A stretch of DNA of 64,000 nucleotides from Actinomycetes bacterium. Its GTDB lineage: Bacteria; Actinomycetota; Acidimicrobiia; Acidimicrobiales; Ilumatobacteraceae. The notes below the pieces were generated by a model. It ran no database searches. It saw nothing but the letters and a program-made list of their open reading frames with translations, and was not told the origin of the DNA. Location: positions 62,001-126,000 of the forward strand of contig JANYCT010000039.1 of assembly GCA_025360105.1 (NCBI GenBank), in the 5' to 3' direction. Below are positions 1,552 through 62,008 of the stretch, piece by piece (positions within the stretch are counted from its first letter, which is position 1; each line of letters begins with the position of its first letter). The position numbers and the translations under genes were made by a program.

Positions 1552-2526
1552 TCAGCGGAAGTTCGGCATCACCTGGGTGGCGAACAACTCCATTGACGTG
1601 GTCTCGGGGTAGTCGCTGCACCACGGGATGAACCCGCGACACCCGAGCGCGATGTACGCAGCGATCTTCTCGCTCACCTGTTCGGGCGTACCCACCAAGT
1701 TTCCCGCGCGCCATGACTCGAACGGCTCACCATTGAGGCTCTTGCTGCCGGCCGCCACGATTTCCGCCTCAGTCTCACGCATGAACAACTCGGGCGACCA
1801 GGTTTTGCGAATGGTTTCTTCGTCACGGCCTACGGCAGCGCAATGGCCCTTGAGGATTTCTCGCTTTCGAGCCCACTCTTCGGGCTTGCCTCCCCAGTTG
1901 CTTGCATCGGCATGCTGGGCCACCACGCGCAACGTGAGCTGCTCTCCCCCACCACCGATCCAGATCGGCGGATGCGGTTGCTGCAGTGGCTTGGGGTCGC
2001 AGTTGGCGCGCACGAGTTTGTAGTACTTGCCGTCATAGGTGGTCTCGGGCTGCGACCACATCGACTTCACGATCTCCACGCTCTCGCGCAGCATGCCAAT
2101 GCGATCTTTCGGCGCGGGGAACTCGTACCCGTAGCCGCGGTATTCGAGCTCGTACCAGCCGGCCCCGATGCCCCAATCCAAGCGACCACCGGAGATGACA
2201 TCGACGGTGGACGTGATCTTGGCCAGCAGACCCGGCGAGCGATAACTGTTACAACCGACCATCTGGCCGAGACGGATGCGGCTGGTGCGCTGACTGATCG
2301 CGGCAATCGTGGTCCAGCACTCGAACACGGTTTCATGCGCTGGCCGAGGCACGTTGTGGAAGTGGTCGTACAACCAGATCGAGTCGTAGCCGAGTTGCTC
2401 GGCCAGAAGCGCGATGTCGACCGCCCGGTTCCACTTCGCCTCCGCTCCATCAATGGAGGACAACTCCATCTTCCAGCCCTGGGGCATGAACACACCAAAC
2501 GTCACATCAGCAACCATCTCAGTCAT
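1552..2526 (-). CDS. LLM-class F420-dependent oxidoreductase (Rv1855c-like)
   Basis: This 324-residue protein is a luciferase-like TIM barrel. It shows the family's conserved blocks: WLYDHFHNVP near residue 50, IRLGQMVGCNSYRSP, GGRLDWGIGAGWYELEYRGYG, and IGGGGEQLTLRVVAQHAD. It closely resembles the mycobacterial Rv1855c-type subgroup predicted to use coenzyme F420. The substrate is unknown. Position 2526 was chosen over the longer frame (2571) because TAGGGT lies 7 nt upstream, the leaderless pattern seen elsewhere here. It is divergent from the acyl-CoA ligase at 2623. Confidence 0.85.
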   Translation of the reverse strand: MTEMVADVTFGVFMPQGWKMELSSIDGAEAKWNRAVDIALLAEQLGYDSIWLYDHFHNVPRPAHETVFECWTTIAAISQRTSRIRLGQMVGCNSYRSPGLLAKITSTVDVISGGRLDWGIGAGWYELEYRGYGYEFPAPKDRIGMLRESVEIVKSMWSQPETTYDGKYYKLVRANCDPKPLQQPHPPIWIGGGGEQLTLRVVAQHADASNWGGKPEEWARKREILKGHCAAVGRDEETIRKTWSPELFMRETEAEIVAAGSKSLNGEPFESWRAGNLVGTPEQVSEKIAAYIALGCRGFIPWCSDYPETTSMELFATQVMPNFR

Positions 2527-2533
2527 GACCCGA

Positions 2534-2539
2534 ACCCTA
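2534..2539 (-). promoter_or_regulatory. -10 element (TAGGGT) of leaderless LLM oxidoreductase gene
   Basis: TAGGGT lies 7 nt upstream of the ATG at 2526 and helps decide that start. Confidence 0.4.
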
Positions 2540-2608
2540 TGGCCCTCGCTGCTCGATGACACACAAATCACCGCTGTGGCGAATTCGCTTCATCGCCCGA
2601 CCTGCCCC

Positions 2609-2614
2609 TAGCTT
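2609..2614 (+). promoter_or_regulatory. -10 element (TAGCTT) of leaderless acyl-CoA ligase gene
   Basis: TAGCTT lies 8 nt upstream of the ATG at 2623. No Shine-Dalgarno sequence is visible between them. Confidence 0.4.
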
Positions 2615-2622
2615 GCCCCCTC

Positions 2623-4254
2623 ATGGAAACCACCACAGTCGACTTCAGCGTGGGCGATATTCACGAGGCCATTGCCGCCACTCGCCCTGACGAACTATGT
2701 CTGGTCTTTCGCGATCGTCGACTGACGTGGGCCGATGTCACCGACCGCACACGGCGTCTCGCCAACTACTTGCATGCTCAAGGACTCGGCTGCCACAACG
2801 AACGCAGCGCTCTGCACGGCTCCGAGAGTGGACAGGATCACCTTGCCATCTATCTACATAACGGCAACGAATACCTCGAAGCGATGCTCGGCGCATTCAA
2901 GGCACGCGTTGCCCCGCTGAACGTGAACTACCGCTATGTCGCCGAAGAGCTTCACTACCTGCTCAACGATTCGCAGGCGTCGGCGATGGTGGTGCACTCG
3001 CAGTTCGCCCCCACCTTGGCCGAGGTGCTGGCCGAGATGCCGTCGCTGCGCGTCATCCTGCAGGTGCCCGATGAATCGGGCAACGCGCTACTCCCCGGCG
3101 CTATGTGGTACGAGGATGCGCTGGCACAGTCGTCGAACGAGCGCCCGCCGGTCACGCCGTCGGGCGACGATCTGTACATTCTCTACACGGGCGGCACCAC
3201 CGGCATGCCCAAGGGCGTGCTGTGGCGTGGTGGCGATGCCGTCGTCGAATGCTTCGGCGGATCAAAGACTGCGACCTCGCTCGACGAGTTCGCCGCCGAG
3301 GCCGTTGGTGGTCTTCGTGCGCTATTGGCGCCACCGTTCATGCACGGCGCCGGGCATTGGATGAGCTTTCGTACGTGGAACTCAGGGGGCACGATCTTTG
3401 TACAGGAGTCACCCGACCGGCTCGACCCGGTCGATGTCTGGGGCCTGATCGAGCGCGAGCGACTCAACTTCTTGCTCATCGTCGGCGATGCGTTCGCGCG
3501 GCCGCTGCTCGACGAGCTGAACCGCCACGAGTACGACCTTTCGAGCCTCACGGTGGTGTTGTCTGGCGGAGCACCGTTGTCGGCCAATCTGAAAGAGGAG
3601 TTCCTCCGCTACCTGCCCACGCTGATGATCGTCGACGGGCTCGGTTCGTCCGAGGCCGGCGGACAGCTGTCGCAGGTCTCGGTTGGCGCCAACGCAACCA
3701 CGGGCACCTTCCCGATCAGCCCAGGCAACCATGTGCTCTCGGGCGACCTCGACCGCGAACTGGCGGCTGGCGAGGACGAGCTCGGTTGGCTCGCCAAGAG
3801 TGGGCGCCTCGCACTCGGGTACCTCGGTGACCCGGTGAAGACTGCCCGCACCTACCCCGTGGTCAACGGCGTGCGCTATGCAGTCCCCGGCGATCGTGCG
3901 AAGCTGCGCGGCGACGGCACCATCGAACTGCACGGGCGCGACAGCGTCACGATCAACAGCGGCGGCGAGAAGATCTTCGCCGAAGAGGTCGAGGCAGCGC
4001 TCAAGGCCCACCAGGGCGTGTATGACTGCGTCGTCGCCGGTCGCCCGAGCGATCGTTGGGGAAACGAGGTGGTTGCGGTGGTCCGTATCCGCGAGGGTTA
4101 CACGGTGAGCGAGGCCGATCTCCTCACCGAGGCGGCCCGTCACATCGCCCGCTACAAGTTGCCGAAGGCGTTCGTCTTCGTCGACCATATCGAGCGCTCC
4201 CCCAGCGGCAAGGCCGACTACCGCTGGGCCAAGCAGACCGCCGCCCAACACTGA
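2623..4254 (+). CDS. FadD17/FadD19-like acyl-CoA synthetase
   Basis: This 543-residue adenylate-forming ligase has the variant P-loop LYTGGTTGMPKGV at about residues 187-199. The GG (rather than SG) variant and following WRGGD are typical of the actinobacterial FadD17/FadD19 subgroup, which activates sterol side-chain or branched acids. The AMP-binding block GSSEAGGQ and the C-terminal catalytic lysine (SPSGKADYRW, about residue 530) are both present, so the enzyme looks complete. It is cytoplasmic. An EthA-like monooxygenase follows 92 bp downstream on the same strand. The assignment to sterol substrates is only by subgroup resemblance. Confidence 0.88.
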   Translation: METTTVDFSVGDIHEAIAATRPDELCLVFRDRRLTWADVTDRTRRLANYLHAQGLGCHNERSALHGSESGQDHLAIYLHNGNEYLEAMLGAFKARVAPLNVNYRYVAEELHYLLNDSQASAMVVHSQFAPTLAEVLAEMPSLRVILQVPDESGNALLPGAMWYEDALAQSSNERPPVTPSGDDLYILYTGGTTGMPKGVLWRGGDAVVECFGGSKTATSLDEFAAEAVGGLRALLAPPFMHGAGHWMSFRTWNSGGTIFVQESPDRLDPVDVWGLIERERLNFLLIVGDAFARPLLDELNRHEYDLSSLTVVLSGGAPLSANLKEEFLRYLPTLMIVDGLGSSEAGGQLSQVSVGANATTGTFPISPGNHVLSGDLDRELAAGEDELGWLAKSGRLALGYLGDPVKTARTYPVVNGVRYAVPGDRAKLRGDGTIELHGRDSVTINSGGEKIFAEEVEAALKAHQGVYDCVVAGRPSDRWGNEVVAVVRIREGYTVSEADLLTEAARHIARYKLPKAFVFVDHIERSPSGKADYRWAKQTAAQH

Positions 4255-5865: not shown

Positions 5866-7086
5866 CTACAGCGGCAGATCGCCAGTGGCCTTCTTCGTGT
5901 TGCCGTTGTCGTTCCACGCAGCAATGGTGCGCTGCGCGATGCGCATCTGGTGGATCTCGTCGGCGCCGTCGGCGAAGCGACTCCATCGTGCCTGCATCAG
6001 CATGCCAGCCAGCGGCGTGTCGGTTGAGTAACCGAGCGCACCGTGCACCTGCACCGCGCGATCGATGATGCGCCACAAGCTGTTGGCCACGAAGTGTTTC
6101 GCCATCGAGACCTCGCTGGTGAAGTCCATCTTGTTCTCGATCTTGTACGCGGCGTGCAGCACCATCAACTTGCTCTGATAGAGCTCCATCGCCGAATCGG
6201 CGATGAGCCACTGGATGCCCTGCTTCTCGGCGAGGTACGAGCCATGGCTGTAACGCTCCATCGAACGCTGCACCATCATGTCGAGCGCCATTTCGGCCTG
6301 ACCCAGCCAACGCATGCAGTGCGCCAGGCGTGCCGGCCCAAGTCGGTACTGCCCGAGCAGATGCCCTTGGCCCTGCCCACCGAGCATGTTGGCTGCGGGT
6401 ACGCGTAGATCCTCGATGAGGATCTCGCAGTGATTGTGGCCACCGCTCATCGTCTGCACATCGCGCACGATGGTCCAGCCGGGGCTGGGTAGATCGACGA
6501 TGAAACAGCTGTTGGCTGCCTGCGGGATATCGGGGTCTTCCTCGGTGCGGGCCACAAGCAGCGCGAACTTGGCGCCACGGGCGCCGCTGATGAACCACTT
6601 GTGACCGTTGATGATCCACTCGTCGCCGTCGCGATACGCGTACGTCTTGATGAGCGTGGGGTCGCTACCGGCCACCTCGGGCTCGGTCATCGCGAAACAG
6701 CTGCGTGTCGTGCCCTCGCACAACGGACGTAGATACTTCTCTTTTTGCTCGTCGGTACCCCAATGTTCGAGCGTGTGCTGGTTGCCTTCGTCGGGCGCCT
6801 GCGCGTTCAACACGAACGGACCGATGCCCACCTTGGCGGCCTCGGCCGACACGGCGGCCATTGCCGTGGGCCCCAACGCCATCCCGCCCCACTCCTTGGG
6901 CATGTGTGGCAGCCAGAGACCCCATTCCTCCTTGGCCTTGTAGCGCAGTTTGCCGATGGTCTTGACCACCTCGGCACGATCGTTCTGGTCGGTGGCGTCC
7001 CAACGCGGGCGCACGACTTCGTCCATGAACTGACGCACTTTCATGCGAATCTCTTCCACCTCTGGCGGGAATGTGAAGTCGATCAT
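5866..7086 (-). CDS. Acyl-CoA dehydrogenase
   Basis: This 406-residue flavoprotein has the acyl-CoA dehydrogenase signature CFAMTEPEVAGSDPT near residue 130. It also has the C-terminal block VHGALGYSTDTPL and RFADGADEIHQMRIA. Length and layout match the ACAD10/11-type or FadE group of bacterial enzymes, which introduce the alpha-beta double bond of acyl-CoA and pass electrons to ETF. A GGAGG Shine-Dalgarno sequence sits 5-6 nt upstream of the ATG at 7086. It converges with the monooxygenase at 5840 and is divergent from menG. The substrate range is unknown. Confidence 0.9.
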   Translation of the reverse strand: MIDFTFPPEVEEIRMKVRQFMDEVVRPRWDATDQNDRAEVVKTIGKLRYKAKEEWGLWLPHMPKEWGGMALGPTAMAAVSAEAAKVGIGPFVLNAQAPDEGNQHTLEHWGTDEQKEKYLRPLCEGTTRSCFAMTEPEVAGSDPTLIKTYAYRDGDEWIINGHKWFISGARGAKFALLVARTEEDPDIPQAANSCFIVDLPSPGWTIVRDVQTMSGGHNHCEILIEDLRVPAANMLGGQGQGHLLGQYRLGPARLAHCMRWLGQAEMALDMMVQRSMERYSHGSYLAEKQGIQWLIADSAMELYQSKLMVLHAAYKIENKMDFTSEVSMAKHFVANSLWRIIDRAVQVHGALGYSTDTPLAGMLMQARWSRFADGADEIHQMRIAQRTIAAWNDNGNTKKATGDLPL

Positions 7087-7177
7087 GAGGGCCTCCGGTG
7101 AATGTGTGCGGCAACCAACCGCAGGCGACGCACCGAGTCTCGTCGGTCACACCCGCGTTGCGCCACTCGTTCGGCCG

Positions 7178-7183
7178 TAGCCT
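7178..7183 (+). promoter_or_regulatory. -10 element (TAGCCT) of leaderless menG
   Basis: TAGCCT lies 7 nt upstream of the ATG at 7191 and supports that start over the longer open frame. Confidence 0.4.
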
Positions 7184-7190
7184 GCAGGCG

Positions 7191-7895
7191 ATGACGAAAT
7201 CCACATGGGATCGAGAAACGTTGCCCCAAGGTGACGAGAAGGTAGTTGCTGTCCGGCAGATGTTCGACAGCATCGCCCCGCGCTACGACATGGTGAACCG
7301 CATCATGACATTCCGTCTCGACGTGCGCTGGAGGCGCAAGGCGGTGCGATTGCTGGCGCTGCCACCCGGAAGCCGGGTGCTCGATCTGGCAAGCGGCACC
7401 GGTGACCTGTGCATCGATCTCACCCGCGCCGGGTATCGGCCCCTGTCAGTGGACCTCAGCTTCGGGATGCTCGCCGCCGACCGCAGTGGATCGCCTCGCG
7501 CCCAGGCCGACATTCTGAACATGCCCTTCCCCGATGCGAGCGTCGATGGAGTCACGTGCGGCTTTGCATTACGCAATCTTGTTGACCTACCGGCCTTCTT
7601 CAACGAGCTCGGACGCGTCGTGCGCCCCGGCGGCCGCATCGCGCTGCTTGATGTTGGCATCCCCAAGAATCGTGTCGTTCGTACCGGCCATGGTTTCTAT
7701 TTCGGCAAAGTTGTGCCCAAGATCGGCGGGTTGCTCAGCGACAAGGCGGCGTACCGCTACCTCCCCAAGAGCGTGGCGTACCTGCCGTCGGCTGCGGTGA
7801 TGGTTGAGGCGCTGCGCGCCGCCGGATTTTCTGACGCCACGCATCAATTGCTGAGCGGCGGCATCACGCAACTGTTGCTCGGCACGCGGTCGTAG
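7191..7895 (+). CDS. menG: Demethylmenaquinone methyltransferase
   Basis: This 234-residue class I SAM methyltransferase has the UbiE/MenG opening FDSIAPRYDMVNRIMTF and the SAM-binding motif VLDLASGTGDLCIDL. It also has GFALRNL and the family-specific LSDKAAYRYLPKSVAYLP. MenG performs the last step of menaquinone synthesis, C-methylating demethylmenaquinone at the membrane surface. The start at 7191 follows TAGCCT by 7 nt; the upstream extension lacks similarity. menF follows after 14 bp, so the two are probably co-transcribed. Confidence 0.93.
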   Translation: MTKSTWDRETLPQGDEKVVAVRQMFDSIAPRYDMVNRIMTFRLDVRWRRKAVRLLALPPGSRVLDLASGTGDLCIDLTRAGYRPLSVDLSFGMLAADRSGSPRAQADILNMPFPDASVDGVTCGFALRNLVDLPAFFNELGRVVRPGGRIALLDVGIPKNRVVRTGHGFYFGKVVPKIGGLLSDKAAYRYLPKSVAYLPSAAVMVEALRAAGFSDATHQLLSGGITQLLLGTRS

Positions 7896-7909
7896 CCCGA
7901 GTCGATTCC

Positions 7910-9088
7910 GTGCGCGCCGTCACCACCGTCTTCGACAGGGACGTCGATCTCAACAACTTCGCAGGACCGGATGGATTTCTGTTCGTTCGCGACGGCGTTG
8001 GCCTGGCCGGACGCGGTGTGGCGGCGCGGGTGGAAGCCGACGCAGCACATGAGCTGCTGACCTCGATCGAGTGCGAGGACTACGTCGGTGCCGCCGGCTG
8101 CGGACCCGTGGCGATTGGGGTACTCCCGTTCAAACCCGGCGCATCCGCGAAGCTCGTGATCCCTTCCGTCACCATCGGCAAGGGCGCCAACGGCCAGCAA
8201 TGGATCACGATCATCGATGGTGCAGATGTTCCTGAAGCTGCCGCCGTCCCAGAGCCAACGGCAGCTGAGTTCAGCGTGCGACCGGGCGTCGACGTGGCCA
8301 CATATCTGGCGGCTGTGGCATCGGCGCGCGATGCAGTACGGGCGGGCACGCTCGACAAGGCGGTGATCGCCCGCGACATCGTCATCACGTGCACCGAGCC
8401 CATCGACGTGCACGCTGTCATGTTGCGCCTTCGCGCCAGCTTCGGTTCGAGCTACCGATACGCGATCGACGGGTTCGTCGGCGCATCGCCCGAGCTGCTC
8501 GTTGGCCTCGATGGTTCCACCGTCACATCGCATCCGTTGGCCGGCACCACACCGCGCACCGGCGATCCTTCCACCGATGCCCGCCTTGCATCCGAATTAG
8601 TGGCGAGCCCCAAGAACCAAATCGAGCATCGAATCGTGATCGACGTCGTGCACGACACGCTGCTGCCGTGGGCGAGCTATCTCGACTGGGAGCCCGAACC
8701 GTCGATTGTTGCCGTTGCAAATGTTCAGCATCTCGGCACGCGAATGGAGGGCCAGCTCTCGCAACCGTGTCCCGATGTCTTGACGCTCGCCCGAGCGCTG
8801 TCGCCCACGCCCGCCCTCGGGGGGCACCCACAGGGTGCCGCGCTCGAACTCATCGAGCGGGTCGAGGGCTTCCGGCGAGGCCGCTACGGCGGCGCAGTCG
8901 GCTGGGTCGATTCACGCGGCAACGGCACGTGGGCAGTGGCGATTCGGTGTGCAGAGTTCTCGCAGGACCGTCGTCAGGCACGGTTGTTCGCCGGCGGAGG
9001 CATTGTGGCCGACAGCGAGCCATTGGCCGAGCTCGCCGAGACGCAAGCCAAGTTTCAGGCGATGCTGTCGGCCATCATTCGCCCCTGA
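7910..9088 (+). CDS. menF: Isochorismate synthase
   Basis: This 392-residue protein belongs to the chorismate-utilising family. The C-terminal catalytic domain shows GASPELLVGL, HPLAGTTPRTG, SPTPALGGHPQG, GRYGGAVGWVD and the closing block FAGGGIVADSEP. It converts chorismate to isochorismate, the entry step of the menaquinone pathway. The GTG start at 7910 is 14 bp after menG. The N-terminal 130 residues are poorly conserved, as is usual for MenF/EntC proteins. Placement between menG and menD favours MenF over a siderophore or salicylate role. Confidence 0.92.
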   Translation: MRAVTTVFDRDVDLNNFAGPDGFLFVRDGVGLAGRGVAARVEADAAHELLTSIECEDYVGAAGCGPVAIGVLPFKPGASAKLVIPSVTIGKGANGQQWITIIDGADVPEAAAVPEPTAAEFSVRPGVDVATYLAAVASARDAVRAGTLDKAVIARDIVITCTEPIDVHAVMLRLRASFGSSYRYAIDGFVGASPELLVGLDGSTVTSHPLAGTTPRTGDPSTDARLASELVASPKNQIEHRIVIDVVHDTLLPWASYLDWEPEPSIVAVANVQHLGTRMEGQLSQPCPDVLTLARALSPTPALGGHPQGAALELIERVEGFRRGRYGGAVGWVDSRGNGTWAVAIRCAEFSQDRRQARLFAGGGIVADSEPLAELAETQAKFQAMLSAIIRP

Positions 9089-35213: not shown

Positions 35214-35288
35214 TGGAGGCGACGCCGGGAATCGAACCCGGATACACGGCTTTGCAGGCCGTTGCCTGAACCATTCGGCCACGTCGCC
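35214..35288 (-). tRNA. tRNA-Cys (GCA)
   Basis: On the minus strand the gene begins GGCGACGTGGCCGAATGG and folds as a cloverleaf. The 7-bp acceptor stem pairs GGCGACG with CGTCGCC. The anticodon loop is CTGCAAA, giving anticodon GCA. The T-loop block is GGTTCGATTCC. The discriminator base is U, as expected for Cys, and CCA is encoded (35214-35216). An integrase remnant abuts its 3' side. Confidence 0.95.
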
Positions 35289-35402
35289 GCGGGTTCACCA
35301 GCGTGAACATCGGCTCCGGCACGATACCGCCTCGACACGCCGTTCGTTAGGTCGGATTCTCCCAACAAGGCGCGCGGCGGCGATTTCTGGCACGATCCTC
35401 CG

Positions 35403-36671
35403 ATGCCTTTGCGTCATCGTTATCTCGCCGTGTGCCTCGTGGTTGGTCTGTTCGTCACGGCCTGCAGTAGTACCTCCAGCACGTCGTCGCAGAGCACCCC
35501 GGCAGCCACAAGTCCCGTGACCGCGACCACTGTCGCGCCCACGACAACCACTGTCGATCCCGCACTGGCAAATGCGTACGTCGAGCCTGGTCCGTTTCCC
35601 GTCGGCGTCACTACGGCAACAATGGCCAATGGGGTGAAGGTAGAGATCTGGTATCCAGCGGTGGCTGGCAGCTCGGGCACCGAGACATACGACGCGCGCG
35701 ACTTCACCGATCCGGTGCTTCGTTCCCTCCTCACCGGCAACGTCGATGCCACGGTTACCTACGCAGCAACGCGCGACGCTGCCGTCGCCGACGGCAAGTT
35801 CCCGGTGGTACTCAACAGCCACGGCGTATCCGGATGGCGTTCGGTCAGCAGCTTTCTCACATCACACCTCGCCTCGTGGGGGATGGTCGTGGTGTCGCCC
35901 GATCATGCCAGCCGCGATCTGTACCACCTGATCTCGAACCTACCGAACCTGAGCGGTGGCGGTACCGGCTCGACCACCACGACGGTCACGCCCGACACAT
36001 CGAACACGACCACGACCATCGATCCCAAGGCTCTGGCCCGCTTCAATGAGTCCGTCGACGACTTGCTCGGCAGTCTGGACTACATCACGGCGCAGAACGG
36101 CGATGCAGCCAGTCCCTTCAAGGGCCATATCGATCTCGATCATGTCGGAGCTCTCGGGCACTCGGCTGGCGGCGGCACAATCTTGAAAGCGTCACTCGAT
36201 CCTCGCATCGATGGCTACGTCTCGATGGCCTCGGGCATCTTCACGACTCAGACAGAACTTCCCGCCAAGCCGAGCTTCTTTCTCTCGGGCGCAATCGACC
36301 ACGTCGCCGACACCGAGCGCACCTACAACGCGTACCTCACGGTTCCCACGCCGTCGTTGTTCTGGAGGATCGACGAGGCGGGCCACAACGCGTTCGACGA
36401 TCTCTGCACACTCGGCGGCGGCAAGGGCATCATCGGTGTCGCAGAGGCCTCGGGCCTCGGCCCGTTCCTGGATGGGGCACCACTCGTCCGAAAGCTCGGT
36501 TCCGACGGATGCGTGCCACCTGCTGCCCCTGCGACTACGACATTTCCCATCATCCAGCACGCAGTCACAGCGTGGTTCCTTCAGCTCTTCGGCAAGGACG
36601 CAACGCCGAAGGGGCTCGACTCCTCGGTGTCTGGTTCGTACGCAGTGAAGGTCACCGTCGAGCAACGCTGA
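35403..36671 (+). CDS. Lipoprotein alpha/beta hydrolase (platelet-activating-factor/chlorophyllase type)
   Basis: A 20-residue signal peptide ends at lipobox FVTAC (Cys21), followed by a Ser/Thr linker. The hydrolase domain has PVVLNSHGVSGWR (oxyanion region), the nucleophile elbow ALGHSAGGGT and a late DEAGHNAF with the likely catalytic His. A second Thr-rich stretch (GTGSTTTTVTPDTSNTTTT, about residues 190-208) interrupts the domain before the elbow. The protein is 422 residues and should act outside the cell membrane on an ester. Substrate unknown. Confidence 0.82.
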   Translation: MPLRHRYLAVCLVVGLFVTACSSTSSTSSQSTPAATSPVTATTVAPTTTTVDPALANAYVEPGPFPVGVTTATMANGVKVEIWYPAVAGSSGTETYDARDFTDPVLRSLLTGNVDATVTYAATRDAAVADGKFPVVLNSHGVSGWRSVSSFLTSHLASWGMVVVSPDHASRDLYHLISNLPNLSGGGTGSTTTTVTPDTSNTTTTIDPKALARFNESVDDLLGSLDYITAQNGDAASPFKGHIDLDHVGALGHSAGGGTILKASLDPRIDGYVSMASGIFTTQTELPAKPSFFLSGAIDHVADTERTYNAYLTVPTPSLFWRIDEAGHNAFDDLCTLGGGKGIIGVAEASGLGPFLDGAPLVRKLGSDGCVPPAAPATTTFPIIQHAVTAWFLQLFGKDATPKGLDSSVSGSYAVKVTVEQR

Positions 36672-36713
36672 TCGAGGTGCCGTCGACCTCGACGTCGACA
36701 CACGAGTATTTTG

Positions 36714-36755
36714 GGCGGACACTTTCAATTTCTGACGCACGCGATAGTGTCTGCC
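36714..36755 (+). promoter_or_regulatory. Inverted repeat upstream of cspA
   Basis: GGCGGACACT (36714-36723) and AGTGTCTGCC (36746-36755) are complementary over 10 positions with one G-T pair, separated by 22 nt. The second arm ends 45 nt before the cspA start. It could be an operator or a 5'-UTR stem. Confidence 0.35.
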
Positions 36756-36800
36756 AGCAAGTCACGTCGGCGAGGCCGTCGTTATTGAAAGAAGAGTGCA

Positions 36801-37001
36801 GTGGCACAAGGCACCGTTAAGTTTTTCAACACCGAGAAGGGCTACGGCTTCATCTCCCGCGAGGGCGGAGCAGATGTTTTCGTGCACCACACCGGCATCG
36901 CCGGTAATGGCTTCAAGAATCTCCAAGAGGGTCAGGCCGTCGAGTTCGACGTCGTGCCCGGCCGCAAGGGTGACCAGGCCGAAAACGTTCGCGCACTGTA
37001 A
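36801..37001 (+). CDS. cspA: Cold-shock protein
   Basis: This 66-residue OB-fold protein has RNP1 (KGYGFI) and RNP2 (DVFVHH), the RNA-binding motifs of cold-shock domains. It is of standard length. It uses a GTG start with a GAAAGAAGAG stretch upstream as the likely ribosome site. It acts as a cytoplasmic RNA chaperone. The gene is monocistronic, with an inverted repeat in its upstream region and a weak hairpin downstream. Confidence 0.95.
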
Positions 37002-37014
37002 ACAACGGGTTGCC

Positions 37015-37036
37015 TCGGGCCAATTGGGGCGCCCGA
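37015..37036 (+). terminator. Possible weak terminator after cspA
   Basis: TCGGGC (37015-37020) pairs with GCCCGA (37031-37036), followed by AGTTT. The stem is short, so confidence is low. Confidence 0.3.
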
Positions 37037-43614: not shown

Positions 43615-45405
43615 TCAGGGTGCTTGAGTCGTCAACGCGCCGGGCATGGTGCCGGTCTCGCGCCAGCGTTCGAGATAGCCGGCGTAGTCCAGCAAACTGC
43701 CTGCGTACACCAGGTTGCGGGCGGCCTTCGCGTTTGCGTAGACCTGCTCGCTGTTGTAGTAGCTCGGCGTGCAGTCGACGCTGTACCGAGCCGCCCCAGC
43801 CGCAGCGCCGTAGAGCACTAGCAGCCATTCCTCTTCGGCTTCTGCGCTTGCCTCGATCGTGGCGATACCTCGCTCCTGGCACGCTGCGATGATGCTGGCG
43901 ACGTGTTCAGTGGACTTGGACAGGAAGTGCAAGAAGTTGGTGCCGAATCCGGCCTGCACGAGGCTGATGATCAACAGATTGGGGAACCCACCGGAAAGCA
44001 CGCCGTGCAAGGTTCGTGCGCCCTGATCCCAGCGCTGGCTCAACGCGATGCCATCGCGGCCGACCGGATCGAAACCCAGTCGACGATCGAGGTCGGACGT
44101 CACCTCGAATCCAGACGCGAAGATAAGACAATCAACGGGGTACTCCACGCCGTCAACGACCACGCCCGTGGCGGTGATGCGTTCGACACCGAGTCCATTC
44201 GTATCGACGAGATGCACGTTGGGGCGGTTGAAGGCGGGGAGATACTCGTCGTGGAAGCACACCCGCTTGCAGTTCTTGCTGTACCACGGCTTGAGCTTGG
44301 CGGCCGTCGCCGGGTCATGCACGACCTGATCGACCCGATCGCGAATTGATTCCATCGTCGCAAAGTCGCTCTGTTCGAGCGCTGCGGCTTCCTGATCGGA
44401 CTCGGGAAGTTTCTGGGTGTTGACCCACATTACATCGGTCCATCCGTCAGCCACGAGGTTCTTCTCCGGTTTTACACCCGTGACAGCATGTGTGAAATTG
44501 ACGATGCGTTCGGCCTGCCAACCCGGGGCGAGCCCGTTGAACCACTCGAGGTCAGTGGGTCCGTTGTTGCGAACCCCAACCGCCGATGGTGTGCGCTGGA
44601 AGACGTACAGCTCTTTGGCCGCCCTGGCGAGCTGCGGCACGGCCTGCACGCCCGTGGCTCCGGTGCCGATGATACCGACACGCTTGTCGGCCAGCTTGTC
44701 CATGAATTCGGTGTTGCTTCCGCCGGTGTATTCGAAGTCCCACCTGCTGGTATGAAACGCCTTGCCTTCGAAGTGCTCGATACCGGGGATGCCGGGGAGC
44801 TTGGCCTTGTGCAACAGCCCACCCGCTGTCACGAGATACGTCGCCGACAGCTTGTCGCCGCGGCTGGTGCCGACGAGCCACCGATTCGCCGTTGCGTCCC
44901 ACTCCGCAGAGGTGATCACCGTCTGGAACAACGCACGCGGGTACAGGTTGAACTGTCGGGCGAGCAACTGACAGTACGCGAAGATCTCCGACGCACTGGC
45001 GTACTTCTCTGTGGGCACGTAACCGGTTTCTTCGAGCAGTGGCAGGTACGTGTACGACTCGACATCGCACATACATCCCGGGTAGCGATTCCAGTACCAG
45101 GTGCCACCAAAGTCACCGGCCTTTTCGACAATCCGCACGTTCGTGATCCCGAGCTTGGCGAGATTGATCGCCGTGAGCATTCCGGCAAAGCCGCCACCGA
45201 CGATGACCACGTCAGACTGCTCGACCACCGGATCTCGCGAGAAGTTCGGATCCACGAATGGGTCACGATCGAAGGCCTCGTAGTCGTCCTTCAGCTCGCG
45301 GTACTGAGCAGTGCCATCTGCGCGAAGTCTCTTCTCGCGTTCGATTCGATAGTGCTCGCGGAGTTCATCGACCTCGACGTCCACTCCGCTGTCGTCCATG
45401 CTCAT
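43615..45405 (-). CDS. Flavin-containing (Baeyer-Villiger type) monooxygenase
   Basis: This 596-residue protein has the FAD motif [11 protein letters not shown] (66-76), [19 protein letters not shown] (from 99) and the fingerprint [12 protein letters not shown] (212-223), fitting FxGxxxHxxxW[PD]. The second Rossmann motif [12 protein letters not shown] (243-254) binds NADPH. Length and sequence type match cyclohexanone/phenylacetone-like type I BVMOs. AGAGGAG precedes the ATG at 45405. The ABM-like and marR genes follow 102 bp downstream on the same strand, suggesting regulation of a ketone or xenobiotic response. Confidence 0.9.
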
Positions 45406-50936: not shown

Positions 50937-50964
50937 TGGAGCGGATGACGAGGTTCGAATTCGC
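50937..50964 (-). repeat. Partial copy of a tRNA 3' end (att-like)
   Basis: TGGAGCGGATGACGAGGTTC and the following AATTCGC match the T-arm, acceptor strand and CCA of the tRNA-Gly remnant at 52304-52354, differing at two positions. No anticodon arm is present, so it is not a tRNA gene. It forms a direct repeat with the 52.3 kb copy, flanking 1.35 kb. Confidence 0.6.
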
Positions 50965-52029: not shown

Positions 52030-52266
52030 CGACTCGAGGCGTCGGTTCCCTGATCTGACCGTGATTGTCGCCGCGTTCTGCTGGCCGTTCGGACAGCACG
52101 CTCTCGACGTCGAGATTCGGCTCTGACCGAAGGGACCAGACGAGGCGGGCGTAGTCCGGAGAAATCGACTTTTCGGCAATTTTCACCTGCTTACCAGGAG
52201 TGACTCAGGGGCGAAGCGAACCTGACGGTACAGCGCGAGGGTATACCGGCAAGCCGAAAACGCAGG
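52030..52266. other. Intergenic stretch, no gene recognised
   Basis: No supported gene is seen between the LuxR-type relic and the hairpin at 52267. The sequence looks like degraded or junction DNA. Confidence 0.3.
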
Positions 52267-52291
52267 TCAGCGGCCCCAGTAGGGCCGCTGA
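52267..52291 (-). terminator. 10-bp hairpin terminator of the displaced tRNA-Gly
   Basis: TCAGCGGCCC (52267-52276) pairs perfectly with GGGCCGCTGA (52282-52291) around a 5-nt loop. Read on the minus strand it lies 12 nt past the tRNA 3' end and is followed by CCTGCGTTTTCGG, a T-tract. This is where a tRNA terminator would sit. Confidence 0.6.
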
Positions 52292-52303
52292 TCTGGTGTT
52301 TCT

Positions 52304-52354
52304 TGGAGCGGATGACGAGATTCGAACTCGCGACCCTCACCTTGGCAAGGTTGT
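52304..52354 (-). pseudogene. 3' portion of tRNA-Gly (GCC), probable attachment-site remnant
   Basis: On the minus strand the sequence contains the anticodon loop TTGCCAA (GCC), variable region, T-arm GCGAGTTCGAATCTCGT, acceptor strand CATCCGC, discriminator T and CCA. The D-arm and 5' acceptor strand are absent. The anticodon stem has two mismatches. This is the pattern left when an element integrates into a tRNA gene and displaces its 3' end. Confidence 0.75.
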
Positions 52355-52361
52355 GGTCACC

Positions 52362-52442
52362 GTCCGTACAGTCCGTCTACTGCACTGCAGTACTCCACAG
52401 TCCGCAAAACCGTCCGGGAAATCCGTCTGTTCCGTCTAGTTC
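52362..52442. repeat. TCCGT-type repeats and palindrome beside the tRNA remnant
   Basis: Six TCCG(T) words occur within about 80 bp (for example GTCCGTACAGTCCGTC). TACTGCA-C-TGCAGTA (52378-52392) is a perfect palindrome between them. Such arrays next to a tRNA core resemble integrase arm-type and excisionase sites; this reading is inference. Confidence 0.45.
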
Positions 52443-52513
52443 GTATACCGGTCTACCATCGCTCGTTCCGAGTCGCCCGATGAAACCCGATACGACACAC
52501 CGAATAAGGGTGA

Positions 52514-52526: not shown

Positions 52527-52877
52527 ATGCCCTGGGGAACCGTCGAACTGGAACCCGAGGTCGTCAGCTGGCTCGACTCCCTCACCGACAACCAGTTCGG
52601 TCAAGCCGAACGCTACATAGACCTCCACGGCGACCAAGGCGTACACCTGAGCGAACCCTTCACCCGCCAACTCGACGGCAAACTCCGCGAACTGCGGTTC
52701 TACCTCGATCGCCAACCAACCCGAATCAGCTACTACATCGCCACCGGACGAATCATCGTCCTATTGACCGTATTCACCAAAACCCGACCCCGAGAACGAG
52801 CAGAAATCGACCGAGCCCGCCGAGCAATGCAGCGCTGCATCACCGACGGCCACCTCAGCGAGGAGCAACCAACATGA
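52527..52877 (+). CDS. RelE/HigB-type toxin (phage-derived Gp49-like)
   Basis: This 116-residue basic protein has the Gp49-like/HigB pattern: VVSWLDSLTDNQFGQAERYI, then LDGKLRELRFYLDRQPTRIS and IIVLLTVFTKTRPRERAEI. The L-R-ELR and FxKKT-like (FTKTRPR) blocks are the toxin-family hallmarks. Members are ribosome-dependent mRNA interferases. The antitoxin gene starts inside its stop codon (ATGA overlap). The toxin-first order is typical of HigBA. It sits directly beside the att-like site, so it probably stabilises the integrated element. Confidence 0.86.
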   Translation: MPWGTVELEPEVVSWLDSLTDNQFGQAERYIDLHGDQGVHLSEPFTRQLDGKLRELRFYLDRQPTRISYYIATGRIIVLLTVFTKTRPRERAEIDRARRAMQRCITDGHLSEEQPT

Positions 52878-53176
52878 CCACCAACTGGACCGACATCAAA
52901 GCCAGCCGGGCTGACAGCGACGAACGACGCCACGGCTACGAACACGCCGGACGCGCCATCCGTCTCGCCTTCGAAATCAAGGAACTACGAGAGAGGAAGG
53001 GCCTCAGCCAACGCCAACTCGCCGAACTAGTCGGCACCACCCAATCAGCCATCGCCCGACTCGAAGGCGGCCGCATCTCCCCCAGCCTCCCCACCCTCGA
53101 CCGAATCGCGAACGCCCTCGACGCCGAACTCACTGTCACCCTCACCGACACCCAACAACTCCTCGGCGCTCGCTGA
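52874..53176 (+). CDS. Xre/HigA-type antitoxin
   Basis: This 100-residue protein has an Xre helix-turn-helix at about 36-90: LRERKGLSQRQLAELVGTTQ, SAIARLEGGRISPSLPTLDR. The N-terminal 35 residues, likely the toxin-binding part, are charged. It should neutralise the upstream toxin and repress the operon promoter. It overlaps the toxin gene by 4 bp. Confidence 0.9.
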   Translation: MTTNWTDIKASRADSDERRHGYEHAGRAIRLAFEIKELRERKGLSQRQLAELVGTTQSAIARLEGGRISPSLPTLDRIANALDAELTVTLTDTQQLLGAR

Positions 53177-53287: not shown

Positions 53288-53908
53288 TCAAGAGCCGCGT
53301 ACTCGATCTGCCTCGCCGGCGAGGAGATCGGCAATGTAGTCGGCGGCGTCGCGATCGGCACCCGGAACGCAATGGCCGTAGACGTTCAGGGTCGTCGACG
53401 CGCGGGCGTGGCCAAGTCGTTGCGCGACGGTCACCACGGCAACACCATGGGCGAGCATCTGAGTAGCCATGAAGTGTCGGAGGTCGCGCAACCTGAACTC
53501 GCCGACCCCTGCCCGACGCCGATGCGCGATGAACGTCTTGGTCACCCGGTTCGGCAACCACGGCGCCCCACCATCGGCGTCGGCGGTGAAGACCCCTGCC
53601 GCAACGATGACAAGGGAAATCCCGACGCCCATTGCGACCCACAGGACGGGGTGAGTTTCCTTCTGGGTTGTAGCGCTTCCCGCTGGGCCGGCAAATGGGG
53701 ACGGCGACGGTAGCGGCACACCGGGAGATTCGCTTTTGGCCTGGTCAAGGTCGAGAGGAGCCGTACGCGGCGCGGTGTCACCTAGCGCTTGTTCGGACTC
53801 CTCGGCAGTTGTAGACGTTCGGAGTGACGCTCCACAGTTCTCACATTTCCTGGCGGAAGGCGAGCTCAATAATCCACATTGTTGACAGGGGCCGTTATGT
53901 CGTTTCAT
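53288..53908 (-). pseudogene. Chimeric ORF: zinc-ribbon membrane protein fused to integrase C-terminus
   Basis: Residues 1-115 (53564-53908) are a zinc-ribbon protein: CQQCG and CENCG, an acidic linker, and one membrane segment (WVAMGVGISLVIVAAGVF). Residues from 116 (53288-53563) are a tyrosine recombinase tail: PWLPNRVTKTFIAHRRRAGV, RDLRHFMATQ, LGHARASTTLNVYGH with the nucleophile Tyr. The HxxR box has Arg in place of His. The junction lies near ADGGAPW. Neither half is complete, so I infer a rearrangement; expression as a fusion cannot be excluded. Confidence 0.7.
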
Positions 53909-53968: not shown

Positions 53969-55370
53969 TCAATGGGATGGTCCGCAAAATGCGCCGATGT
54001 CATGTCGCACGTTTGCAACACGTAGGGCTGCTTCATTGATTCGTTGTTCAGAGATTCTTCCGGTGTCGACGGCGCCGATGAGAGCAGCGATGACCGAGGC
54101 GGTCTTGTTGGTTTCGGTGAAGATTACGACGTCGATACCTGCCTGGATTGCCCGGATTGATGCCTCGGGGAGATCGAGGCCGACGGCACCCATGCCAAGG
54201 GCGTCCGTCATCACGAGCGCCCACCCGGACGTGTCGATCACGTTGGCGGCGAAGGCCTTGGCAACGGCCTCGTCGCTCGATCCGTCCACGCCTCCGGGCA
54301 GCAGCGACGCGACCAGCGTCGAGAGGCTGATGCTGCCGATCGACTTCATGCTGTCGAGCAGCGTCGTCTGGTCGAGAACCAGTGGGATTCCCGTGGCCGG
54401 CTCGATCACCTTCGTCGTCACGGGAGTGGCGAGCCGGGCGAAGGTCTTCGCAAGCTCCTGCTGGAGGTCGCCGGCCGCCGAACACTTGGGGGCCACCGCG
54501 CAGTCGGCGGCGAAACGACCGAACGCCGCCGCGAGGTCGTTGGCGCCCCCACCCGCGCCGACTGCGACGGGCGTTCTCGAGACCGGCGCCGTCACCGACG
54601 TCGGATCCTGGTCGATGATCTGCAGGGCGATGTCGGCCCCAGCGCTGCCGGCGTACAAGGCCCACGTCGAGATGCCGAGCGCCCGACGTACAACCTCGGT
54701 GTCGGCCGCCACGACCCGGTGATCGAAGATCGACGCAAACGGCACCACGCTCTGCTCCGCCTTCGCGAAACACGCCTTCACCGCTGCTGCGGCTGCCGTG
54801 CCAAGATTCATGGTGCTGATCTCGGCTGAGTAGGTAGTGAGCTCCGGGCAGGTGGTGCCGCCATCGCTGCGACCGGCACCGCGCTGATCGACCCAGATCA
54901 GGTCGTGGCCCTGAAAGACGTCTGCGGCCTTCGGGTCAGTCCACGGGTAGGACGGCGTCGTGCCGAGGATCGACAGGACAGGTGCGTTCCATTTCGATGC
55001 GTCCGCACGCCGAACGGTCACGGCCAACGCAATGGTTCGACCACCGCCCTTCGTCGGGTCAACAGGCACCGCAACTGTCAGGCAGGTGAGCGTCTTCGGT
55101 GCGCCGTCCGGACAGGTCGCAAGCGTCGCCACCGCGATGGGCGCAGTCGTAGGCGGTGCCGCGCTGGTAGGTGGATCCGTGACCGGCGCCGCAGTCGTGC
55201 CAGGCGCCGCAGTCGTGCCAGGCCGCCGCGGTCGTGCCAGGCGCCGTGGTCGCGGAACGCACGATGGTCGATGCGGGAGTCGACGCGGCCGTGCTGCTGT
55301 CCGAGCTGCAGCTCGTCGCCACCAGCGCAAGCGCAATGCCGAGACATGAGATGACAACTCTCCAACGCAT
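53969..55370 (-). pseudogene. Frameshifted, chimeric exported alpha/beta hydrolase with a GH3 tail
   Basis: A lipoprotein signal (lipobox LVATSC, Cys21) begins at 55370 in one frame. After an APGTTA repeat at 55221-55228 the protein continues in another frame, consistent with one extra base. The body resembles TAP-like hydrolases (VDQRGAGRSDGGTTCPE, LYAGSAGADIAL). Near residue 380 it stops matching, and the last 81 residues read VMTDALGMGAVGLDLPEASI and ISEQRINEAALRVANVR, the end of a GH3 (NagZ-like) glycosidase. The hydrolase's usual C-terminal catalytic His block is missing. It is probably non-functional as written, or a sequencing error accounts for the frameshift. Confidence 0.65.
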
Positions 55371-61942: not shown

Positions 61943-62008
61943 GATGTGTTTCCCCTGTTCTTCGGTGTGCCCGTGGGACACACGCTCGTTGTCGTGACTT
62001 CGTGGTCG

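Follow-up and report, generated by a model that had tools for sequence, protein, structure and literature searches.

A displaced 3' half of tRNA-Gly(GCC) as a probable att core within a tandem array of integrated elements

Islands inserted into tRNA and tmRNA genes, such as those collected by Islander (PMC4383910), combine an intact tRNA gene with a displaced 3' fragment of it in the right orientation, and both components are present at the locus considered here; a class with crossover in the anticodon and tandem arrays are also known from that collection and have their likeness here. The differences from the islands described there are a conserved module of arm-type repeats with toxin–antitoxin (TA) genes at the distal end, and the presence of several units without an integrase or with a length below 2 kb. 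Since the Islander filters, as described, reject units of these two kinds, similar arrays may be missed elsewhere. The ssrA islands of Dehalococcoides (PMC3146451) likewise are inserted serially behind one RNA gene and are bounded by direct repeats derived from its 3' end; an integration module is lacking in 15 of 31, and their cargo includes catabolic genes. These islands depend on serine recombinases and tmRNA, whereas here the recombinases are tyrosine integrases and the target is tRNA-Gly, and a TA-array module is not among the features described in the part of that source on which we rely. The cis-mobilizable elements and accretion discussed in the same source also have att-bounded units without an integrase beside integrase-bearing ones, but those considered here carry a TA operon and measure down to about 1 kb, and their mobility is putative. 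Hence serial RNA-gene islands, many of them devoid of an integration module and carrying catabolic genes, were known before (PMC3146451), and the present locus and its relatives add the constant arm-repeat module, the distal TA genes and the units of about 1 kb. The integrative and conjugative elements (ICEs) with aromatic-degradation genes (PMC6563109, PMC9960961) share with our locus, as far as these descriptions go, the degradation cargo. The pdif modules of Acinetobacter plasmids, as they are described, resemble it in being small, some with TA genes, and in lying between short recombination sites; they rely on the host XerC/XerD and reside on plasmids, whereas the site here is tRNA-derived, about 155 bp long and chromosomal. 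The tRNA-Gly gene is the target of ICEclc and of mycobacteriophage L5, the latter having arm-type sites. In the open-licence literature no description of this tRNA-Gly locus or of TA units of about 1 kb was found, which is a weak indication of novelty.

The window, that is, the whole analysed stretch of 64 kb, covers positions 62001–126000 of contig C28 in a genome (G000) of 105 contigs, 3.89 Mb in total. Its features are listed in the table. Our main reading, to which we assign a probability of roughly 85%, is that the tRNA fragment at 52.3 kb, core1, is an att core inside a tandem array built by repeated integration at tRNA-Gly(GCC). If so, both borders of a catabolic island segment are fixed, and one tRNA gene has been used repeatedly within this family.

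Table. Features of the window, in window coordinates
Feature	Position	Strand	Sequence or remark
Chromosomal anchor: tRNA-Cys and neighbour genes	35214–37028	-	at most 3.3 kb from tRNA-Gly in G001
Flavin-monooxygenase-like gene	43615–45405	-	in G007 a 90% homologue immediately follows the att copy
core0, 28-bp fragment of the tRNA-Gly 3' end	50937–50964	-	starts in the T arm; 93% identity
Integrase start remnant	52159–52186	-	same family as the integrase start that follows intact tRNA-Gly on C77; breaks off after some nine codons
Terminator-like hairpin behind core1	52267–52291	-	TCAGCGGCCC/GGGCCGCTGA
core1, orphan 3' half of tRNA-Gly(GCC); putative att core	52303–52352	-	anticodon stem to CCA
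Repeat array; proposed integrase arm sites (P' arm)	52353–52462	-	six CGGA words (TCCG on +) in 52354–52461
Inverted repeat inside the array	52378–52392		TACTGCA-C-TGCAGTA
Toxin-like gene	52527–52877	+	PF05973, Gp49 (HigB-like)
Antitoxin-like gene	52874–53176	+	HTH_3
Fusion ORF	53288–53908	-	N-terminal part without Pfam match; C-terminal tyrosine integrase tail
In-window part of the att-bounded segment	53909–64000	.	holds the catabolic cluster; continues to core2 at 79852

The initial annotation, made from the letters alone, had described an orphan 3' half of tRNA-Gly(GCC) with a terminator hairpin behind it and, on its other side, six TCCG words, a palindrome, a TA pair and an integrase tail. 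All these features are confirmed. Core1 shares 49 identical bases with the intact tRNA-Gly(GCC) of contig C77 and is not preceded by a 5' half; over the 64-kb window ARAGORN calls tRNA-Cys as the sole tRNA and no tRNA-Gly. The terminator scan and RNA folding agree on the hairpin: there are two terminator-like sites per 500 bases near core1 against a shuffle mean of 0.5 (sd 0.8), and the tRNA half together with the hairpin folds better than 200 of 200 shuffles (z -3.5). The array has its six CGGA words directly repeated within 108 bases, the shuffle mean being 1.3 with none of 3000 shuffles reaching six; among 3356 windows scanned over 84 kb this number is reached only at the core1 array and its copy at 79.9 kb. 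Pfam identifies the TA pair (PF05973, HTH_3) and the integrase tail, which corresponds to positions 107–167 of the 172 in PF00589 and is 85% identical over 110–112 aa to intA of genome G440, a relative considered below. The Rfam search of 50–54 kb with E up to 1 yielded two matches, both far under the gathering scores. The array was also considered as an integron attC site and this was rejected, as neither of its strands folds better than the shuffled sequences (z 0.87 and -0.84).

The search of the same genome with positions 52200–52500 as the query returned four places. The second tRNA half with repeats, core2, lies on the same contig at C28:141852–142011, equivalent to window positions 79852–80011, has the same orientation as core1 and matches it at about 96–97% over 157–160 bp. 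On another contig, C77:59609–59760 matches the terminator and the tRNA half of the core1 region. Here ARAGORN finds the intact tRNA-Gly(GCC), 316 bases from the contig end, and the contig ends inside the start of an ORF that looks integrase-like at its N-terminus, without a Pfam match. The terminator and integrase start of C77 are also found behind core1 (94.8% over 193 bp). Read along the tRNA strand, C77 gives the chromosome, intact tRNA-Gly, terminator and integrase start, followed by the assembly gap; then come the right end of C28 (HTH_17/PIN, VanZ, a HigBA-like pair), array, core2 and transposase ORFs; then the 27.5-kb segment, the integrase tail, a HigBA-like pair, inverted relative to that at core2, array and core1; and finally the terminator with the broken integrase start, core0, 5.5 kb of other genes, the monooxygenase gene and tRNA-Cys. 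The short cores, such as core0, start in the T arm and may stem from a second class of integrases. Near core2 there is also a 104-bp direct repeat (89%; window-equivalent 80053–80156 and 81998–82100, or L006 16053–16156 and 17998–18100), which overlaps the end of the antitoxin gene of the pair called type 2 below and is a second, decayed copy of that end.

The earlier claim that the displaced tRNA copy marks an island junction is thus supported by the att modules at core1 and core2. The junction is real, but as a boundary it is internal to a tandem array, with core0 and an integrase remnant further to the left. Similarly, the tRNA-Gly expected downstream of 64 kb has a counterpart at 79852, but this is another displaced half, and the intact gene is on C77.

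No contig bridging C77 and C28 was found, and the two are unjoined in the assembly. The C77 tail has one other match only, of 43 bp in the window, and the C28 tail has none; the last 16–60 bases of both tails are absent from 22 integrase-flanking loci (L063–L084). Contig C47 starts inside an integrase ORF and is a candidate continuation only. On the other hand, the C77 genes before tRNA-Gly are syntenic in six of eight other genomes of the genus (G001, G003, G004, G005, G007, G008), while G002 and G006 have no tRNA-Gly match. In G001, homologues of window positions 37.0–35.4 kb and tRNA-Cys are situated within 3.3 kb of tRNA-Gly, and neither integrase nor orphan copy is seen behind the latter. 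In G008 neither is present within the 1.46 kb behind the tRNA, up to the contig end, so this genome covers the left side only. The synteny of C77 and the joining of both flanks in G001 suggest that C77 and C28 belong to one locus, probably linked across the assembly gap, and that the region to the right of about 37 kb is variable. Hence the empty site expected in relatives of an island-bearing genome is found in G001, and relatives without the island carrying the same tRNA fragment in conserved synteny, named in the initial annotation as the contrary pattern, were not seen. G007 has a 2-kb version of the locus, consisting of tRNA-Gly, an integrase lacking the part of PF00589 beyond position 79, a TA pair, array and orphan core, and then the homologue of 43.6–45.4 kb. 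Since this monooxygenase gene directly follows the orphan copy in G007, the region 45.4–50.9 kb is extra relative to that genome. Further, in contig C10 of G001 (L051, 9792–10320) an ORF for an integrase C-terminus is situated directly behind tRNA-Cys at the contig end, and this tRNA is thus a second target close to the tRNA-Gly locus.

These observations bear on the simplest alternative, that the tRNA piece arose by chance or by a duplication unrelated to integration. Other duplications can yield pieces of tRNA genes, but the 49-base identity, the second copy with its array, the constant orientation, the integrase remnants on both sides and the relative with adjacent flanks all disagree with this explanation, and we regard it as extremely improbable.

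The initial annotation had also proposed that an element extends rightwards from core1 and may include the catabolic operon to 64 kb and beyond. Given the matching core2 module at 79852, there is indeed a 27.5-kb segment with the catabolic gene cluster, running from core1 to core2 past the window end and flanked by direct att repeats, but this segment is probably composite, and its arrival as a single element is conjectural. The Pfam matches in the segment include class II aldolase, PadR, FAA hydrolases, luciferase-like proteins, cupin, DHDPS, an ABC transporter (ATPase, permease and binding protein), short-chain dehydrogenase, LigB, aldehyde dehydrogenase, DmpG type (HMGL-like and DmpG_comm), acetaldehyde dehydrogenase, sulfatase, tautomerase, glyoxalase and transposases. 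Judged from these families, the cargo looks like genes for uptake and ring-cleavage catabolism. Among 220 other genomes of the family, acetaldehyde dehydrogenase is matched in five (E <= 1e-100) and the cupin in two (E <= 1e-60); at the same thresholds neither has a match in the eight other genomes of the genus. The only trace of an integrase in the segment is the C-terminal tail in the fusion ORF. Relaxase, transfer, conjugation and phage structural families are absent from the larger segment ORFs, those given to Pfam; as far as these ORFs go, the segment differs in this from the ICEs and mycobacteriophage L5, the comparison being one of gene families and not of sequences. The GC content of the segment is 64.6%, compared to 63.7% for 1–35 kb, 62.4% for 37–50.9 kb and 62.9% for C77; the contrast of GC across the boundary, suggested as a check, is uninformative at 64.6% against 62.4–63.7%. 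The ORF at 53969–55357 has an alpha/beta hydrolase match in the middle and glycosyl hydrolase family 3 at the end, and likely is a gene fusion or a decayed region.

We consider the segment probably composite because the integrase tail is fused to another ORF, transposases are situated near core2, and the terminator behind core2 is of the chromosome type, resembling the chromosome-side ends in relatives (96% over 25 bp to G005_644). The latter does not fit simple outward displacement of one element spanning core2 to core1. The same three features, namely, the transposase ORFs near core2, the fused integrase tail at the far end and the chromosome-type terminator, are those expected if the catabolic segment is not cargo of a tRNA-Gly element at all and has been placed between old att remnants by IS activity or homologous recombination. 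This is a serious alternative, which we put somewhat short of even odds, as the segment is bounded precisely by two att modules that agree in class and orientation, and G440 has a larger element that carries cargo and has the distal end in common with it.

The module of about 155 bp, formed by the tRNA half and the array, is present in eight copies in three genomes of one family. The search with a query of 157–168 bp against 100 relatives found it in the own genome and G007, and that against 397 genomes of the order, with two candidates per genome scored at E <= 1e-20, in the own genome only; hence this class of modules is rare. In the five genomes behind the toxin loci, G440 has five copies and G007, there under another handle, has one. 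G440, whose contig C135 corresponds to JANYDH010000043.1, is an uncultured actinomycete MAG and belongs to the family of the window; it is evidently the G603 of the integrase set, since the two agree in the integrase, which is identical, and in its contig number and position. The alignment of the eight copies has an invariant GATGGTA...GTATAC...CGGA pattern, and similarity is lost outside the module; the columns of the CGGA words are invariant in 22 of 24 cases and the other array columns in 39 of 66 (p = 0.004). The modules of core1 and core2 are 97% identical while their 700-bp flanks have no similarity, whereas the modules of core1 and G440_a are 88% identical and their flanks 90% identical over 689 bp. 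Thus the histories of the module and its neighbour disagree, which implies that modules have been exchanged or have undergone gene conversion.

TA genes or their relics adjoin the array at six of the eight copies. HigBA pairs of type 1 are found at core1 and G440_a, those of type 2 at core2 and G007 and, decayed, in contig C43 of G440, and an MNT/HEPN pair adjoins G440_b; in the two other copies (G440_d and G440_C114) the contig ends after 170 bp that are 90–91% identical to the type 2 flank at core2. 'MNT' matches over att arrays were ignored, as the query ORF begins inside an array. In G440, att-bounded units without an integrase are situated beside related integrase-bearing ones: C135 has two neighbouring units of 967 and 1036 bp, each with one TA operon and no integrase, and on C43 an 11.4-kb element has an integrase ORF of full length next to the tRNA and, at its opposite end, a TA relic, array and core. 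G019, from another genus, has a 2-kb unit between two orphan copies, in which the integrase is divided among three ORF pieces and the toxin of a HigBA pair shares 80% identity with that of the window. The toxin scan yielded 71 loci from 92 stretches bearing one of two peptide patterns, and the toxin identity at L085 reaches 96%. Cores resembling tRNA-Gly occur at five of the 71 loci (orphans at L085, L086 and L131, an intact gene at L137 and a 30-bp match of 87% at L145); hence there is no general association of this TA family with tRNA-Gly. The 16-kb contig C135 (L171, L085) is unusually rich in TA genes and relics, and besides the att units has a further MNT/HEPN pair at 2261–3377 and antitoxin-like pieces at 7062–8406.

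The 967- and 1036-bp units invite the interpretation that TA operons of about 1 kb, each with an att module of about 155 bp, are moved in trans by integrases of neighbouring elements and shuffled between genomes, making tRNA-Gly(GCC) a capture site for TA cassettes, somewhat similar to an integron. The occurrence of the same module with different neighbours (core1 and core2) and of different modules with the same neighbour (core1 and G440_a) agrees with that, but gene conversion between modules could also produce this disagreement. By eye, the small units do not have the GCCCAT repeats of the integrase-bearing ends, the cores of both G440 modules involved have extra bases near the anticodon, which looks like decay, and the module is seen in three genomes only. 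Moreover, the 2-kb forms of G007 and G019 have damaged integrases, so that integrase loss explains the small units. We consider such shuffling rather unlikely and favour the small TA units being fossils kept by addiction, the TA pair being the probable reason for the retention of decayed elements. If the units of about 1 kb do move, they are very small TA-carrying mobile units.

Over all regions retrieved, the CGGA words were counted in the 110 bp before the core, omitting three orphans and one intact gene with less sequence in front. In 25 orphans of at least 40 bp, two of which (L181 and L184) border on a contig end and could be intact genes cut short there, the tRNA strand has 3.32 words on average and the opposite strand 0.16. 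Before 29 intact genes the mean is 0.69. The comparisons give p = 5e-5 and 5e-7, the rows of the orphans not being independent, as eight of them represent one module class. For the 17 orphans outside the window's class the mean is 2.1 (p = 0.008 against intact genes). Three or more words are found in 15 of the 25 orphans, and one or none in eight; hence some elements do without this word. The two orphan fragments of 28–29 bp, kept apart, have no CGGA in front. At the integrase-bearing ends, two or three direct GCCCA(T/C) repeats are visible by eye behind the terminator, and in their place C77 has TATACCATCG twice. Arm repeats on both sides of the core are the layout of the two-armed att site of lambda-type integrases, and the CGGA words are repeated in one orientation beside the core, as in such a site. 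These words travel with the att core and most likely are arm-binding sites of the integrase on the distal (P') arm.

The scheme that we favour, integration at tRNA-Gly(GCC), starts from what is observed directly: the att copies, their order and orientation, the conserved flanks, the module in relatives and the one-stranded enrichment of CGGA. Tyrosine integrases would insert elements into tRNA-Gly(GCC) at the anticodon-loop side, binding the CGGA/TCCG words of the P' arm as arm-type sites. The incoming element would supply a new 3' half with its own terminator, so that the tRNA is kept whole, and each insertion would push the old 3' half outward; serial insertion would thus produce a tandem array behind one tRNA gene. 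The long-type orphan cores begin at the anticodon stem, and hence fit the anticodon-centred class described for Islander (PMC4383910). The crossover would then fall in the anticodon loop, and both its position and the order of insertions are proposed from sequence comparison. Of 30 loci with related integrases, 21 have the integrase next to a tRNA sequence that immediately precedes it, which is an intact tRNA gene at 19 loci and an orphan tRNA-Gly copy at 2. This one subfamily of integrases has several tRNA targets in the same family (L195–L224), as its members are also found behind tRNA-Glu, Thr, Lys, Val and Leu genes. In G044, orphan tRNA-Gly copies (L052, L053) have a different conserved array and lie near an HTH gene and a 250-aa ORF without a Pfam match, and one unit of 1.76 kb has no recognised integrase.
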